Assembly: GCF_018448935.1 (NCBI RefSeq) | Contig: NZ_RCWC01000012.1 | Coordinates: 62,001 to 126,000, forward strand | Direction of reading: 5' to 3' | Length of the DNA stretch: 64,000 bases | Source of the DNA: Photorhabdus noenieputensis | Lineage (GTDB): Bacteria > Pseudomonadota > Gammaproteobacteria > Enterobacterales > Enterobacteriaceae | In this document: piece by piece, positions 8,663 to 19,618 of the stretch | How positions within the stretch are numbered: position 1 is the first letter of the stretch | How the letters are laid out: each line of letters opens with the position of its first letter | Made by a program: the position numbers and the translations under genes | Notes under the pieces: model-generated | Databases searched by the model: none | Told to the model about the DNA's origin: nothing | What the model saw: only the letters and a program-made list of their open reading frames with translations

Positions 8663-9841
8663 TCACGGGTCATTTTCTCCATTAATCGAAATAGGCCCCC
8701 CTTGGCTGTCATAAAGCCCTTCCAATACCGGATGACCTGACTGGATACCGCTAACCAACGCTACATCACTGCGAGTCGCAAATATCTGAGTGCGAAAGCA
8801 CAACATAACAGCACAACCGACCGGAAATTCACCGCTCAGGGGGAAATGGTAATCAATACTGGTATCATCCATCGGTAACAAGTGAGTGGCGGTAATCTGG
8901 CCGTCTGGCAGGAGTACCAGCGCGTTATACGCCTGCCCACGACGGTAATAACCGCCCCCATAGCAGTAGCTGTTACCGTTAAATCGGTGGGATATTTCTG
9001 TCAGGTAGAGCATAGCAATGCGTTCTGGCTGCTCCCCACGATAATTGGCAAGGATTGTTCCTGTTAGCGCATGCCCAGGCTCGGTATGGGTAACACCATA
9101 CTTTGCCAGTAACGGCAGCGTGCTACAGCTTGACGCCGACGGCGCATTTATCTGCGTCACCTCAACCCCTGCCTGTCGCAAAATGTCTTTTGCTTTCAGT
9201 AAAGTAAATAAGTTTGGTGCCGGCAGTGTCTGCTGCTGGACGTCTTGCCACAACAGGCAAGGAAAATGTGTCAACCCTGTCAGTTTTACACCGGGCATCG
9301 CCATAATACGCTGAACGATGGTGTTCAATTCCGACAAATGAAAACCTGCTTCCTGACCAGGATATAAATGGTCATGATCATCATAGATTTTCAGCATAAT
9401 GCGTTGCACATTTCCCTCACGCTGCGCCAGACTGGAAATTTCCTCCGCTTTTTCTAAAGAAAATACTGTGATCACTTCCGGATGTTGCTGCATCACTGAG
9501 GAGACCATATTGCGAGGGATCTGTACCAAATGGCCTACATGAGTCACCGGGATCTTCCTGTTCATCAAGATCCTGGCTTCTTTAAAATCCACCGCGGTGA
9601 CGCCCTGATAACCCAGTTCTATCAGTTTACGCGCCAACCAAGCGTTACGCCCAACCTGTTTGGTCATCAGGTAGAGTGCAATACCATGATGCTCCGCTAC
9701 CGCAAGCAATCGTCTGGCATTGTCTAAAACCTGGTCAACGTCAATAACATAAGTATCTGGCAGTAAGGCTCCTCGCGCCCATAACATCTGGGCCGCCTCA
9801 ATCAATGCCGGATTTTGTTTGTTCAGCGCATGCATAAACAT
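8663..9841 (-). CDS. yhfX: YhfX-like alanine-racemase-fold PLP protein
   Basis: A 392-residue protein with an alanine racemase-type PLP barrel, matching YhfX. The N-terminus has YVIDVDQVLDNARRLL and LMTKQVGRNAWLARKL (probable PLP lysine in TKQ); later come VTHVGHLVQIP, HFPCLLWQ and GYYRRGQAYNALVLLPDG. AGGAGG lies 6 bp before the ATG at 9841. Its stop is 43 bp upstream of php, with no room for yhfW. Substrate unknown. Confidence 0.88.
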   Translation of the reverse strand: MFMHALNKQNPALIEAAQMLWARGALLPDTYVIDVDQVLDNARRLLAVAEHHGIALYLMTKQVGRNAWLARKLIELGYQGVTAVDFKEARILMNRKIPVTHVGHLVQIPRNMVSSVMQQHPEVITVFSLEKAEEISSLAQREGNVQRIMLKIYDDHDHLYPGQEAGFHLSELNTIVQRIMAMPGVKLTGLTHFPCLLWQDVQQQTLPAPNLFTLLKAKDILRQAGVEVTQINAPSASSCSTLPLLAKYGVTHTEPGHALTGTILANYRGEQPERIAMLYLTEISHRFNGNSYCYGGGYYRRGQAYNALVLLPDGQITATHLLPMDDTSIDYHFPLSGEFPVGCAVMLCFRTQIFATRSDVALVSGIQSGHPVLEGLYDSQGGPISINGENDP

Positions 9842-9954
9842 GCTGTACCTCCTGTACTTCTTCGGCGATCAATGCCACTACAAGACTTAGATGTTAAATC
9901 ATCATTTTTTTGAATATTTGATGGAAAAAAAATTCCCCTCATCTCTGTGATGGT

Positions 9955-10314
9955 TTAGCACTGCTCCTTCGCCGCCCAAAGGCTAAGCAAATTTGCCAGC
10001 AGGTATCCCTCCTCACAGGGATGTAATTGCACGTCAAAATGTGCCAACAACGAAGCGTTAACCGCTTGCAAATGAGAAAAAACTCTCGATTGACGTACTT
10101 CCATCAGCAGTTCAATATCCATTGAACTGATTTGTTCTCCCCGGCGTGAGCGCATCAACGCATTAGCCATATGTGTTATTACTATTTCCCCTAGTGCATT
10201 TCTGACAGGGATTTTCCAATCATTTTCAAGCTGCGCCACAACCTGTAACATGCCATCATAGATATCCTGATCTATGACATTTCCCTGGCAGAGTAGATTC
10301 AGTCGATTCTCCAT
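9955..10314 (-). CDS. yhfY: YhfY-like PRD-domain protein
   Basis: A 119-residue protein consisting of a single PTS-regulation-type (PRD) domain, with the segment VITHMANALMRSRRGEQI carrying the candidate phosphorylatable histidine. The start at 10314 (MENRLNLLCQG) is chosen because GGAGG lies 8 bp upstream and the length then fits YhfY (about 120 residues); the longer frame to 10377 would overlap yhfZ. It probably couples yhf expression to PTS phosphorylation together with YhfZ (inference). Confidence 0.85.
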   Translation of the reverse strand: MENRLNLLCQGNVIDQDIYDGMLQVVAQLENDWKIPVRNALGEIVITHMANALMRSRRGEQISSMDIELLMEVRQSRVFSHLQAVNASLLAHFDVQLHPCEEGYLLANLLSLWAAKEQC

Positions 10315-10342
10315 TTCGTGAACCTCCTCTATCCATGCCAAA

Positions 10343-11248
10343 TTAATAACTTGGGTCCTGCTGGCCTGACAGTACACGTTGTTGGTGAGCCAACAACTCT
10401 GTTTTATTCACCATTGTACGTAAAAGTTGTTGAATCAAAATGTCATCAGCTCTGGTTAAAACCACCGCTTCAGATGCCTGGATAAAACATGCACTTCCAC
10501 GAAGCGGTACTGCAATAAGTTCCCTGGAACTGAGTTCAGTTTCTCTGCTAACGTTCCAGATCACCGCGTCAATGTCACCTTTCGCTACCTTATACAGGCT
10601 CTCGTGGTAAGAGATATCCACCAACGTGATATCCAGCCCTGCAAAGTACACTTCGGTCATGATCTTCTGGTCGGCGGAACGCTGATCCAGCCCAACACGA
10701 CGGATATTATGTTCACCTCCTTTGCGATAAATCAGTTGGTGTGCGCCAACATAGGTATGTGGCCCCAATTCGAGTACCGCGCGAACATCTCCCTGTTCCA
10801 GATAAGTTTGCGCCGCCAAATGAGATACCACCGCCAAGTCATAAATACCATCACGTAAGCACTCTACCCTGGCATCTGAACCTCTCATGTGGGCGAAGTA
10901 AAACGGAATGCCTTCAAATTGCGCTTTCAGGCCGCTCGCTAATCCCTCATACAATCGGGTATAAGGCAACGGCATTGCGCAAACCACATTACTAATATCA
11001 GCATGGGCTAACAGCGCTTTGTGATCCACACTGACTAAATAGCTGCCATTGCGCCCCCGCCGTTCCACGTAAACCGCGCCAGAACTCTCCAATTTCTTTA
11101 ATGCAAACTGAACTAGCCCAACAGATAACCCATAATCAGATGACAGCTCTTCAATCGTCTTCAACCGACTACCACAATGCTCACCTAGCAGATAACGTGC
11201 CAAACACGCCTGAGCAACCCCCTCTTTTTTCAACAGCCCTCGACTCAT
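10343..11248 (-). CDS. yhfZ: YhfZ-like transcriptional regulator of the yhf operon
   Basis: A 301-residue regulator. The N-terminus has a winged helix (residues about 30-75, TIEELSSDYGLSVGLVQFALKKLESSGAV). The rest resembles a periplasmic-binding-like ligand domain (YGLASGLKAQFEGIPFYFAH, VGAHQLIYRKGG, GDIDAVIWNVS). It matches YhfZ and is the first gene of the minus-strand operon, so it is a likely local regulator. Its stop lies 28 bp before the yhfY start. The effector is unknown. Confidence 0.85.
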   Translation of the reverse strand: MSRGLLKKEGVAQACLARYLLGEHCGSRLKTIEELSSDYGLSVGLVQFALKKLESSGAVYVERRGRNGSYLVSVDHKALLAHADISNVVCAMPLPYTRLYEGLASGLKAQFEGIPFYFAHMRGSDARVECLRDGIYDLAVVSHLAAQTYLEQGDVRAVLELGPHTYVGAHQLIYRKGGEHNIRRVGLDQRSADQKIMTEVYFAGLDITLVDISYHESLYKVAKGDIDAVIWNVSRETELSSRELIAVPLRGSACFIQASEAVVLTRADDILIQQLLRTMVNKTELLAHQQRVLSGQQDPSY

Positions 11249-11400
11249 AATAATTCTTCATTTTTTTGAATGTATTTATATCTAATTTAAGCAGGCAAAT
11301 AACAATCGGAAAATGGCAAAAATGTGAATAAGGTCACGAATAAATAGATAATTTCCTGTAATTTCAATGAGTTTAGTTTGATAACTAATAATTTCTGTTT

Positions 11401-13086
11401 TTATGCTTTAGTCATGGTCGTTTCTGGACGCTTAAGTAATGCATAAATAAATCCTGCCAACAGGGTACCGGCAATAATCGATATCAAATAACCCACTATT
11501 GGTGTGATAGCGCCAGGGATCAACAGCACAAACAGGCCACCGTGCGGTGCCATTAACTGTGCACTCACTGCCATAGAGATCGCTCCCGTCACCGCACCGC
11601 CAGCGATACAACATGGGAGTACTCGCATCGGATCGCGGACAGCGAAAGGAATAGCGCCTTCGGAAATAAAACATAGGCCCAACACCAATGCAGCTTTACC
11701 ACTTTCCCGCTGAACGTTATCAAACTTCTGCCGGGCAATCAGGGTCGCCACTCCCATTGCCAACGGTGGAACCATCCCCGCAGCCATAATGGCAGCCATT
11801 GGCGCATAGGTTTGCGAGCTAAGCAAACCGACACCAAACGCATAGGCAGCTTTGTTTATCGCTCCCCCCATATCAGCGCACATCATCCCACCCAAAATGG
11901 CCCCTAGCAGCAGCGCGTTGGTTGTCCCCATATTAGAAAGCCAGTGCGTTAGCCCCGCCATGATACCGGCGACTGGTTTACCAATAACGTAGATCATAAT
12001 CAGGCCAGTGATCAGGCTGGCAAATAGCGGAATGATCAAAATCGGTTTCAACGCTGCCATACTTTGCGGCAATTTAACTTTGGTACTCAGTAATTTCGCT
12101 ATATAACCGGCGAGAAACCCCGCAATAATGCCGCCAATGAATCCCGCGTTCGTGCTGGTTGCCAACATGCCGCCAATTAAACCCGGTGTCAGACCTGGAC
12201 GATCAGCGATCGAGAAAGCAATGTAACCTGCCAGTACAGGGACCATCAGCGCAAAAGCTGAACCACCCCCAATTTGCATCAGCGCGGCTGCTAATGTACC
12301 CGGCTCTTTAAATGCAGTGATGCCAAAAGCAAATGACAGCGCGATACACAGACCTCCCGCCACTACCATCGGTAACATATAAGAAACGCCGGTCAACAGG
12401 TGACGATAGATGCCGCTATTCTCTTCTCCTTGTCCACTTTTAGTACTATTTTTTTGCGTACTATTCTGCCCTGTCGGCTGGAAAGGTTTAGCTTCGATCA
12501 GCGCTTTATCAAATTCTTGCGCCGTTTTCTTCAACGCTAGCCCGGTGGAGGTACGGTACATAGGTTTTCCTGCAAATTTCGCCAGATCTACGTCAATATC
12601 TGCAACGATCAGCACCAGATCCGCTTCTGCCACCTCTTCCGGTGTAATAACATTGCCCGCCCCTACCGAACCGCGAGTTTCCACCTTTACCCACCAACCG
12701 CGCTTTTTGGCTTCGATTTCGATAGCTTCAGCGGCCATAAAGGTATGTGCCACACCAGTAGGACAAGCAGTAACCGCGACAATGCGTTTTGTATCACAAT
12801 TGATGTCAGTTGCTGGTATCTGATACGGCTTCGCGTCAGTTTTTGCCCGCTGAAAGAAATTTTCCGGCGCATGCAACGCCTGTTCCGTGTCACCGAGATA
12901 AACAAGTTTACCGTTCAGTGCGTTATCGGCGGGGATGCGACTGCCGGTCACGACGACCAAATCGGCTTCCGCTGGATCTTCTGTTAGTATCAATCCGTTT
13001 TCCACCGCAGCGGCACTGAGGACTGTTTTCACCAGATAACTCCCGGCGAGTCCGAGTGAAGGATCAACGATAAGCAGCATTTTCAT
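11401..13086 (-). CDS. fruA: Fructose PTS transporter FruA (EIIB'BC)
   Basis: A 561-residue inner-membrane permease that phosphorylates fructose to fructose-1-phosphate during uptake. It matches E. coli FruA end to end: a degenerate IIB' domain at the N-terminus, the active IIB domain with phosphocysteine in VTACPTGVAHTFMAAEAIE, then the IIC membrane domain (GVSYMLPMVVAGGLCIALS, MAPHGGLFVLLIPGAITP). ATGs occur at 13089 and 13086; AGGAG is better spaced for the second. The 1-phosphofructokinase gene that normally precedes it is gone (see 13112-13156). Confidence 0.95.
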   Translation of the reverse strand: MKMLLIVDPSLGLAGSYLVKTVLSAAAVENGLILTEDPAEADLVVVTGSRIPADNALNGKLVYLGDTEQALHAPENFFQRAKTDAKPYQIPATDINCDTKRIVAVTACPTGVAHTFMAAEAIEIEAKKRGWWVKVETRGSVGAGNVITPEEVAEADLVLIVADIDVDLAKFAGKPMYRTSTGLALKKTAQEFDKALIEAKPFQPTGQNSTQKNSTKSGQGEENSGIYRHLLTGVSYMLPMVVAGGLCIALSFAFGITAFKEPGTLAAALMQIGGGSAFALMVPVLAGYIAFSIADRPGLTPGLIGGMLATSTNAGFIGGIIAGFLAGYIAKLLSTKVKLPQSMAALKPILIIPLFASLITGLIMIYVIGKPVAGIMAGLTHWLSNMGTTNALLLGAILGGMMCADMGGAINKAAYAFGVGLLSSQTYAPMAAIMAAGMVPPLAMGVATLIARQKFDNVQRESGKAALVLGLCFISEGAIPFAVRDPMRVLPCCIAGGAVTGAISMAVSAQLMAPHGGLFVLLIPGAITPIVGYLISIIAGTLLAGFIYALLKRPETTMTKA

Positions 13087-13111
13087 CATGCTTCTCCTGC
13101 TATTAGCTAAA

Positions 13112-13156
13112 TTAGGGTTGTAGATCGACGCGCGCCATTATCACAGTCAATTGGAG
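13112..13156 (-). pseudogene. fruK: Remnant 3' end of fruK (1-phosphofructokinase)
   Basis: The short fruB-fruA gap reads, on the minus strand, LQLTVIMARVDLQP then a stop. E. coli FruK ends in QLAAMMARVDLQPFN, so these are the last 14 or so codons of fruK. About 300 upstream codons are missing between the fruB stop (13161-13163) and this tail. The deletion is clean and leaves fruB and fruA intact and cotranscribed. Confidence 0.87.
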
Positions 13157-13160
13157 GTTT

Positions 13161-14288
13161 CTATTTACGCGGCTCCTCCCCCAAACCGGAAACAATCGCT
13201 TCACCAATGGCAGTTATCGCCTGCTGCGCATCATCACCATTAGCAGTAACATGCAGCCGATGCCCTTTTTTAGCACCCAATGACATGATTTTCATCAGAC
13301 TACGGCCGTTTACCGGTTGACCGGCACCATCAAGATTGATGATGGTAATTTCACTGGAAAATTGCCGGATAACATTAACCAGCACAGCGCCAGGACGAGT
13401 ATGTAAGCCATGTTCGTTGCATAGGACAAATTCCCCATTGGATATCGCGCTCTGCGCCTGTACGCCGCTGGTCAGTAATGCCAGCACTGTCGGCGCATCA
13501 GCTTTCAGCAAACATTCCGCTTTTTGTGCTAATAACAGGTTACTTAAGTGATGCAATACATTTAGCGGCTGGTCGTCGGCAACTGCAACGGTCAACAACA
13601 TCACTACTGGTTCGTTGTCCTGCGTGAACAATCGGCTCACTGCCACAGCGCTGGTTAAATTACCGTCGGGGCTATCGCTTAGCCAGATGCCCTGCCCAAG
13701 ATCCAACGGCTTACTGTTGATCACTTTGCTGACAAAGGTCGTATCCACAGCCCCCACTTGCTGTAACCGGCCAGCATTCAATGCCTGTAGTGTCATCAGA
13801 TCGCGGGCGTTAACATCTAGCGTAATCAGGCTGGTATCGAATTTAAACTCAGGTTGCTGAATTTCTCCCATTAGCAAGCTATGCAGTGCCTGTGCTGATT
13901 CAATTGTTCTTAGCTGCCTGGCAATACGATCATCGCTCAATAGGTGTGTTAACTGACGCAGTAATGCCAAATGCTCATCGGAACGTGCAGCGATACCAAT
14001 AACCACGTAACACATCGCTCCCTGATCCCATTCAACACCTTGTGAGAAATGAAATACCTGTACATCAGTTTTCATGACCAGCTCACGGGTATCTAGCGTG
14101 CCATGTGGAATGGCGATACCGTTGCCAAGGTAGGTGGAGATTTGCTTTTCACGTTGTAACATGCCGTCAACATAGGCATCACCGACGTTACCATTCGCGG
14201 CTAACATGGCCGCCACTTGGCGAATAGCATCCTCTTTACTGGTCGCACTTGCACCAGTATGGATATTTTGCAGAGACAACTGGAACAT
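13161..14288 (-). CDS. fruB: Fructose PTS diphosphoryl-transfer protein FruB (EIIA-M-HPr)
   Basis: A 375-residue cytoplasmic phosphocarrier that passes phosphate from enzyme I to FruA. Its EIIA domain carries His62 ([10 protein letters not shown]), the middle M segment is present ([15 protein letters not shown]), and the C-terminal FPr/HPr domain carries the active His at about 296 ([12 protein letters not shown]). Length and order match E. coli FruB (376). It is the first gene of the fru operon, with two Cra-like sites upstream. Confidence 0.95.
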
Positions 14289-14312
14289 AATTTTCTCCCT
14301 ATTACCAAAAAT

Positions 14313-14324
14313 AGAAGCGTTTCA
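14313..14324. promoter_or_regulatory. Cra (FruR) operator-like site, proximal to fruB
   Basis: AGAAGCGTTTCA, read on the minus strand as TGAAACGCTTCT, fits the Cra pattern TGAAACGNTTCA except for the last base. It lies 24 bp upstream of the fruB start, as expected for the primary Cra-repressed operon, which is relieved by fructose-1-phosphate. Confidence 0.75.
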
Positions 14325-14379
14325 GTTTACGCAGAGAAAAAAGCATTAAGTCCAATAAAAAGAAAAAGAGATAAAAAAC

Positions 14380-14391
14380 TGAAACGTTTCA
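14380..14391. promoter_or_regulatory. Cra (FruR) operator-like site, distal to fruB
   Basis: TGAAACGTTTCA is a perfect 12-bp palindrome matching the Cra consensus, 67 bp upstream of the proximal site. Two sites ahead of fruB is also the arrangement in E. coli. Confidence 0.82.
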
Positions 14392-14400
14392 ACGAGTGTG

Positions 14401-14766
14401 GAACATGACTAATTTTCATTCAATACTTATGTGAAATAAAATCGCAATTTTTTGAGATTACTCACATTTTTCTTGCCTCGTTTTTTGCCTACCTCCGGTT
14501 TAAGAGATTTGGCAAATCGATAACTCATTTATGCTGATGAGAATGTCGATGTTGAGGGTTATGTACTTCACTTTTTTAACCGGCAAATGGTCGATGTCTA
14601 GAAGCTGCCTTATCGGATGAATACTGTCTCAGCAACGCCTGTGGTTTATGATATGCCGTTTCGTGAACGTTATACGTGGGTAGAGTTTATTGACTCAAAA
14701 ACAGGGGAAAATAAACAGAGATGGTCTTTATGTATGCGCCTTAACAGGCGCATACATCAGAATCGC
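14401..14766 (+). other. Intergenic stretch with an unidentified 53-codon frame
   Basis: No full gene is seen between the fru promoter and the recombinase. A 53-codon frame at 14617-14778 (MNTVSATPVVYDMPFRERY start) and a short open stretch ending at 14601 (YADENVDVEGYVLHFFNR) look like gene debris, but I do not recognise the parents. Confidence 0.4.
14730..14757 (-). terminator. Strong hairpin just after the recombinase gene
   Basis: ATGTATGCGCCT, loop TAAC, then AGGCGCATACAT gives a perfect 12-bp stem. It lies 10 bp beyond the recombinase stop. There is no clear U-tract on either strand, so it could be a Rho-assisted terminator or a small palindromic repeat. Confidence 0.5.
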
Positions 14767-15387
14767 TTATTCAGTTGAACAAGCATTTTCCTGTGGGACA
14801 TAATCAAAGTGTAATTCTCGTTGCCGATTCCTTTTTACACCCCAAACACCGTGGAAACGCTCCGCATTACTGGCGGTATATCGCACAGTATGGCGAATAT
14901 TACTGTGCCCAAGATAATCTTGTATCAACCGAGTATCTATCCCTCTATCCGCAAGCGCAAAACCACAGGCATGGCGCAACATGTGCGGATGCGAATCTAT
15001 GGAAATCTTAGCCAATCGTCCAAATTGGTTAATAAGTTGATAAACACGCTGGCGAGTCAGTGGGTTTCCGGTACGTGACAGAAACAACCAATCACTTTCT
15101 GCCCCTCGGAAGGTTTTACGGACTTTTAGCCACTCTTTGATCGCCTGGATTTCATAACCCAAAAGAGGATGAATAGTAGAAAATCCGCCTTTTAAACGCC
15201 GGATATACAAACTGCCATCATCCAAATCCAGATCAGATAACCGTAGATATCTGGCTTCACTAACACGTAAGCCATGAACAAAGCTCATGTATACCAGACA
15301 ATAGTCGCGCGCCCCATTAGGACTCTTTTTCGCCACTTCCAGTATTCTTTCCACTTCGTATTGCGTTAGATGTCTTCGTTGACCCAT
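14767..15387 (-). CDS. FimB/FimE-type tyrosine recombinase
   Basis: A 206-residue site-specific recombinase of the short FimB/FimE class, a catalytic domain with little N-terminal arm. Catalytic residues are visible in order: Arg in HGLRVSEARYL, Lys in RRLKGGFS, HxxR in PHMLRHACGF, His in LGHSNI, and the nucleophile Tyr in VRYTASNAERF. This family usually inverts promoter segments of fimbrial genes, but no fimbrial gene or paired inverted repeat is evident here. It abuts a decayed yhfS copy (shared base 15387), consistent with arrival by transfer or rearrangement. Confidence 0.9.
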   Translation of the reverse strand: MGQRRHLTQYEVERILEVAKKSPNGARDYCLVYMSFVHGLRVSEARYLRLSDLDLDDGSLYIRRLKGGFSTIHPLLGYEIQAIKEWLKVRKTFRGAESDWLFLSRTGNPLTRQRVYQLINQFGRLAKISIDSHPHMLRHACGFALADRGIDTRLIQDYLGHSNIRHTVRYTASNAERFHGVWGVKRNRQRELHFDYVPQENACSTE

Positions 15388-19364: not shown

Positions 19365-19491
19365 TACACCCTATGGATTTCAAGATGCATCGCGACGGCA
19401 AGGGAGTGAATCCCCAGGAGCATAGCGAACTATGTGACCGGGGTGAGCGAGTGCAGCCAACAAAGAAGCAACTTGAAGGATAACGGGTATA
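19365..19491. repeat. ERIC element (first of a tandem pair)
   Basis: A copy of about 127 bp with canonical core GTGAATCCCCAGGAGCATAG and TATGTGACCGGGGTGAGCG. It begins ACACCCTATGGATTTCAAG and ends GATAACGGGTATA. A second copy in the same orientation follows immediately, sharing the junction TATATACC. Confidence 0.93.
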
Positions 19492-19618
19492 TACCTTATA
19501 GATTTCAAGATGCATCGCGGCGGCAAGGGAGCGAATCCCCGGGAGCATAGATAACTATGTGACCGGGGTGAGCGAGTGCAGCCAACAAAGAGGCAACTTG
19601 AAAGATGACGGGTATATA
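19490..19618. repeat. ERIC element (second of a tandem pair)
   Basis: A full-length copy of about 129 bp in direct orientation to the first, beginning TATACCTTATAGATTTCAAG and ending GATGACGGGTATATA. It differs from its neighbour at several bases (GCGGCGG versus GCGACGG; CCCCGGGAG versus CCCCAGGAG), so it was probably acquired separately rather than by local duplication. It lies 41 bp before the RpiR gene. Confidence 0.93.

Follow-up and report, generated by a model that had tools for sequence, protein, structure and literature searches.

The window analysed here, a stretch of 64,000 nucleotides from the insect-associated bacterium Photorhabdus noenieputensis, contains the genes of a fructose phosphotransferase system (PTS) on its minus strand. 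The product of fruB (14288..13161) is a fused fructose PTS EIIA/FPr (HPr-like) protein of 375 aa (NF008319, PF00359, PF00381), and that of fruA (13089..11401) is a fructose PTS EIIB'BC permease of 562 aa (NF007984, TIGR01427). Both are intact as judged by curated HMMs: NF008319 gives FruB 575 bits (cut-off 302), and FruA scores 1043 bits against NF007984 (cut-off 793) and 480 bits against TIGR01427. The PTS pair itself is therefore complete and, as the initial annotation had it, no fruK lies between the two genes. The contiguous fruB-fruK-fruA arrangement of the E. coli-type fruBKA operon is not found, fruK being missing with an end piece remaining. Adjoining fruB is a gene (14767-15387) for a 206-aa phage-integrase-family protein (PF00589), which is also found beside yhfZ in two genomes of the genus that have no fruBA (G002 and G003). 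Adjoining fruA are YhfX-like and YhfZ-like genes with a small gene between them (8663-11248), a region whose genes were found in all 12 genomes of the genus looked at. Elsewhere in the window, two adjacent copies of a repeat of about 127 bp (19365-19615), which we take to resemble ERIC elements, match several places in P. asymbiotica and P. australis loci too.

Upstream of fruB lies a putative Cra operator, TGAAACGTTTCA (14380..14391, minus strand), with no mismatch to TGAAWCGWTTCA, the sequence that we took as the Cra core for site scoring. A second site, TGAAACGCTTCT (14313..14324, minus strand), is located 36 bp before the start codon (ATG) of fruB and has two mismatches; its counterpart when aligned with Yersinia and Serratia is their proximal fruB operator. 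Hence, of the two Cra-like operators first described for this promoter region, one is perfect and the other is degenerate. Core matches are common in shuffled sequence, at least one with no more than one mismatch being present anywhere in the 64 kb in 62 of 100 shuffles, so that it is the placement upstream of fruB that counts. Scanning for promoters and terminators in and around fruB yielded nothing beyond what the shuffles gave.

The gap between fruB and fruA measures 71 nt on the minus strand and encodes LQLTVIMARVDLQP followed by a stop (13156..13112, minus strand), that is, 14 codons from near the end of FruK, stopping two residues short of typical FruK ends. The remnant had been placed at 13112..13163; the FruK tail was correctly seen, but its extent was not, as position 13163 runs into the last bases of fruB. 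Against a reference set of FruK C-termini from 40 fruBKA loci (nine distinct ends) the gap scored 50, while base shuffles gave a maximum of 23 and none of 100 reached 50. The same test on the seven genomes of the genus that bear the gap gave 0/100 in six and 1/100 in G001. In a by-eye alignment the gap DNA resembles the 3' end of fruK in Pantoea and Erwinia and the spacer that separates it from fruA there, up to and including the ribosome-binding stretch. The predicted ribosome-binding region of fruA (13090..13103, minus strand) matches that spacer and, on this alignment, is a leftover of it that has been retained by fruA. A FruK-like tail arisen by chance is ruled out by the shuffle comparison and by the junctions across the genus, and among the relatives whose junctions were compared no case was found in which the tail had never been part of fruK. 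Since the similarity to FruK tails is far above shuffles and the DNA aligns with Pantoea and Erwinia, fruK was most likely deleted; from the alignment, the deletion most likely begins just past the stop codon of fruB and reaches to within about 16 codons of the end of fruK, sparing the fruA ribosome-binding region.

The initial annotation had gone on to reason that without 1-phosphofructokinase fructose-1-phosphate would accumulate, and that either another kinase takes over or the system works as a fructose sensor acting on Cra. A genome search for FruK/PfkB kinases located an intact fruK on a contig other than that of the window (G000:C34, 46432-47376), its product scoring 585.5 bits against NF007068 (cut-off 432) and 321.4 bits against TIGR03828 (cut-off 292). 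This resident fruK is flanked by nfo and a nudix gene (yeiE-yeiH-nfo-fruK-nudix-tyrP-like-yeiP), the neighbours bearing names that we assigned after E. coli. Ahead of its ORF, at a distance of 75 bp from the start, is a perfect Cra-like site, TGAAACGATTCA, which in alignment corresponds to the proximal operator of Yersinia fruB. The search gave nine PfkB-family matches, and among the eight that were scored (the ninth, on C24, is weak) the resident FruK alone passed the 1-phosphofructokinase cut-offs. Other PfkB kinases were rejected as stand-ins: three besides FruK pass curated cut-offs of their own, as ribokinase, HldE and IolC, and four more pass none, being closest to pseudouridine kinase, 2-keto-3-deoxygluconokinase, inosine/guanosine kinase and ribokinase; six of the eight were scored on the matched stretch rather than on the whole frame, which lowers the scores. 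The PfkB search and the curated FruK scores thus rule out the absence of a kinase. Because an intact fruK behind a Cra-like site is present elsewhere, the metabolic puzzle does not hold, and neither the accumulation nor the sensor role finds support. That the FruBA product is a dead-end signal to Cra in a genome without fructose-1-phosphate kinase, for which the missing fruK between fruB and fruA would speak, is extremely improbable against an intact FruK above curated cut-offs with its own Cra-like site and against the purifying selection on FruK orthologs in the genus. Judging from its sequence, the resident FruK should allow fructose catabolism by acting in trans.

Comparison of the best 80 of 379 confirmed loci divided them equally, 40 having a lone fruK beside nfo and 40 having fruBKA. 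The lone loci are from Photorhabdus (12), Xenorhabdus (20), Morganella (5), one MAG, one Limnobaculum and 'Enterobacteriaceae bacterium B14'. Several Yersinia loci read tyrP-like, nudix, fruB-fruK-fruA, nfo, yeiH, yeiE, that is, the same flanks around a full operon, and, when aligned with MAFFT, most of the lone-fruK operators shown fall on the proximal operator of fruB in Yersinia and Serratia, the B14 row being a misfit. This synteny and the coinciding operator argue that fruB and fruA were most likely lost in place with retention of the operator, and the nfo locus is the presumed ancestral fru locus. In a tree of nfo and yeiE (55 rows) the lone state requires three changes, two of them forced by well-supported branches; the direction of the presumed change is shown by the synteny, the change counts giving none. 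The species and FruK trees took in 55 of 88 loci, the rest having been thinned by hand or being without nfo or yeiE. A perfect Cra-like site is found within 200 bp of the lone fruK at 36 of the 40 loci, with a frequency of 0.001 in shuffles. In 12 further copies of lone fruK, two of which repeat L165 and L184 and one of which (L206) is away from nfo, the site had no mismatch in one, one mismatch in six, two in one and four in four. Within Photorhabdus, P. bodei and P. heterorhabditis (L116, L123) have no Cra-like site within 200 bp upstream of fruK, whereas the other ten loci do.

Across the 12 Photorhabdus genomes the resident-type fruK is always present at the same place, 89-100% identical and without internal stops. 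Full-length FruB was found in ten of them, with fruA directly downstream each time and fruK between the two in none. Photorhabdus shares with the E. coli-type fruBKA system the three proteins, all above curated cut-offs, the Cra-like sites upstream and the fruB-fruA order, but fruK stands outside the operon, alone at another locus, fruB and fruA are at a new place, and their junction is either the FruK-tail scar (7/10) or a direct fruB-fruA overlap, TAATG (3/10; G006, G010 and G011). That the scar is common to seven of the ten agrees with the deletion from the operon proposed at first. Neither FruB nor FruA was found in G002 and G003, which match P. asymbiotica and P. australis. The block 11342..14718 of the window is absent there, with identical BLASTN alignment ends in both, and is replaced by 410 and 201 bp, respectively, in an otherwise unchanged neighbourhood. 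By itself this empty site cannot tell a gain from a later loss.

The gene content of the two loci is complementary, and could also have arisen internally if a native fruBKA had been duplicated or moved, fruK then disappearing from one copy and fruB and fruA from the other, without any foreign donor. A native fruBA of Morganellaceae to compare with was not found, which leaves some room for such a split. We consider it quite unlikely for several reasons. In trees obtained by quick searches with no bootstrap, both FruB and FruA of Photorhabdus cluster with proteins of Erwiniaceae and their allies (SH-aLRT 99 and 97), separately from the operons of Yersinia, Edwardsiella, Pectobacterium and, in the FruB tree, Xenorhabdus; the FruB tree comprises 86 rows and the FruA tree 51, loci with a short flank, Xenorhabdus operons included, having been dropped from the latter. 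A caveat on this grouping is the long branch of Photorhabdus FruB (0.41). The resident FruK ends in MADVELIPVK; the scar, MARVDLQP, departs from this and is closer to Erwiniaceae FruK ends. Besides, the same lone state is seen at the Xenorhabdus and Morganella loci, and re-acquisition recurs, as second operons indicate. The 30 Xenorhabdus genomes all have fruK (81-86% identity), its solitary position having been seen at the 20 loci compared rather than in each genome; seven of them also carry FruB, 49-53% identical to that of the window, with a second fruK (65-70%) alongside, and a fruA-type IIC was beside FruB in both of the two, out of these seven, that were scanned. Likewise, a complete fruBKA is accompanied by an extra fruK in G014, G057, G093 and G139, the latter gene being at the nfo locus in three of the four. 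Two Xenorhabdus without FruB hold pieces of a fructose-type PTS IIC (G212, C1:468987-469236; G214, C1:1657380-1657736), which suggest that a re-acquired operon has decayed again. Base composition was dropped as proof of transfer: the GC3 of fruBA (0.49) is above that of nfo and yeiH (0.30-0.37), but the flanking yhf genes are equally rich (0.46-0.51) and are present at the empty site. Adjacency was checked in the 45 top-ranking genomes of the FruB list among the 117 that have both genes; fruB and fruK are apart only in the two Photorhabdus among them.

Taking into account that gain of a whole fruBKA and deletion of its redundant kinase explain together: (i) the placement of FruB and FruA in the trees; (ii) the separation of fruB and fruK; (iii) the resemblance of the scar, and (iv) the recurrent re-acquisition, we propose with good confidence a split fructose pathway, in which ancestral loss of fruB and fruA was followed by gain of a foreign operon. 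In the model, the ancestor of Photorhabdus, Xenorhabdus and Morganella would have lost fruB and fruA in place, keeping fruK under the old operator. Photorhabdus would later have gained an Erwiniaceae-like fruBKA between yhfZ and the integrase-like gene, and the incoming kinase, redundant with the resident FruK, would have been deleted with the scar left behind. FruBA would import fructose as fructose-1-phosphate, which would free Cra from the fruB and resident fruK sites, and the resident FruK would convert it in trans into fructose-1,6-bisphosphate. The locus in the window would then clearly illustrate how an operon was lost, probably regained from a foreign source and trimmed of its redundant gene.

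Lone fruK occurs in Photorhabdus, Xenorhabdus, Morganella and Budviciaceae-like genomes. Among 198 genomes drawn from the family, fruK is present in 128 and fruB in 119; comparison of the lists by hand gave 11 genomes with fruK only, the gene being beside nfo in ten and without recognised neighbour in G144, and two with fruB only, both degenerate (in G039, whose completeness is 49%, fruB contains stops, and the operon of G172 is frame-broken). A fructose-type IIC (TIGR01427, 1e-5) had no match in 27 of the 30 fruK-only genomes scanned, a set that took in 19 Xenorhabdus genomes out of the 23 that have no FruB; the exceptions are sub-cut-off fragments in two Xenorhabdus and a fructose-like PTS paralog in G053. 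All 23 genomes tested for Cra, including 13 with fruK only, encode it (TIGR02417, above cut-off). In an alignment of 18 Cra sequences, from most of which the first ~50 residues are missing, the regulatory domain matches closely. In relatives without fruBA the retention of fruK is not readily explained by ordinary fructose catabolism.

Constraint on the lone genes was estimated from median dN/dS, values that are rough because synonymous distances are near 1: 0.077 in 12 Photorhabdus, 0.061 in 20 Xenorhabdus and 0.037 in five Morganella loci, against 0.016 in 11 Pectobacterium and 0.010 in nine Yersinia loci for operon fruK. The shift for nfo is smaller (0.056, 0.037 and 0.056 in the lone groups; 0.032 and 0.027 in the operon groups), and the shift in fruK exceeds that in yeiE as well. 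By these estimates lone fruK is under purifying selection, weaker than that on operon fruK. GAGD, the PfkB catalytic motif, reads GAGDS in all 40 lone and all 40 operon FruKs. Of 239 columns invariant across the operon FruKs, 75 vary in at least one of the lone ones.

Lone fruK might be a passive leftover, the transporters going first because loss of the kinase beside them is toxic and fruK then decaying slowly. The excess of genomes with fruK but no fruB over the reverse, together with the raised dN/dS, would be expected from this; a dN/dS far below 1, the lack of internal stops in 30/30 Xenorhabdus and 12/12 Photorhabdus, and the retention of the Cra-like site and of GAGDS are not, and we find slow decay a rather doubtful explanation. 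A regulatory function can also be considered. In Weeramange et al. 2024 (PMC11157272), E. coli FruK was reported to produce fructose-1-phosphate from fructose-1,6-bisphosphate and to bind Cra, and it is debated whether Cra is controlled in the cell by fructose-derived fructose-1-phosphate only or also by a signal derived from fructose-1,6-bisphosphate. A lag on glycerol was reported there for an E. coli fruK deletion. The genomes studied here resemble that system in having a FruK ortholog with a Cra-like operator, and Cra; the FruK described there is within fruBKA, whereas many genomes here, as known from sequence, keep FruK without FruBA. Tentatively, FruK may have outlived the fructose PTS in Morganellaceae and Budviciaceae-like genomes for a regulatory job, making fructose-1-phosphate from fructose-1,6-bisphosphate or binding Cra and so reporting glycolytic flux without fructose, Photorhabdus having then rebuilt uptake around the resident kinase. 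By analogy such a second role would fit the retention of lone FruK, slow decay or an unknown substrate being the alternatives. The weaker constraint, the 75 of 239 varying columns, the four of 40 loci without a perfect site and the mismatched sites among the 12 further copies count against the regulatory reading.

In the literature searched, mostly outside subscription journals, no description of lone fruK in these genera was found; the main text describing the FruR/Cra regulon (PMC4052901) does not mention Photorhabdus or Proteus, and passages of PMC2329645, PMC12304739 and PMC5146860 hold nothing decisive on it. Genomes that have Cra and FruK behind a Cra-like site, mostly without a fructose-type PTS permease, allow the question of regulation to be treated apart from fructose catabolism, and lone-fruK lineages would provide natural tests of the putative second role of FruK. 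One substitution distinguishes most of the lone proteins: in the GKGINVA motif, 33 of the 40 FruKs encoded at the lone loci (L112-L144, L165-L169, L171 and L184) carry Asn at a position (46 of L112) that is Ile in every one of the 40 operon FruKs. The position adjoins what we presume to be the substrate-binding Asn, and the change could alter substrate preference.
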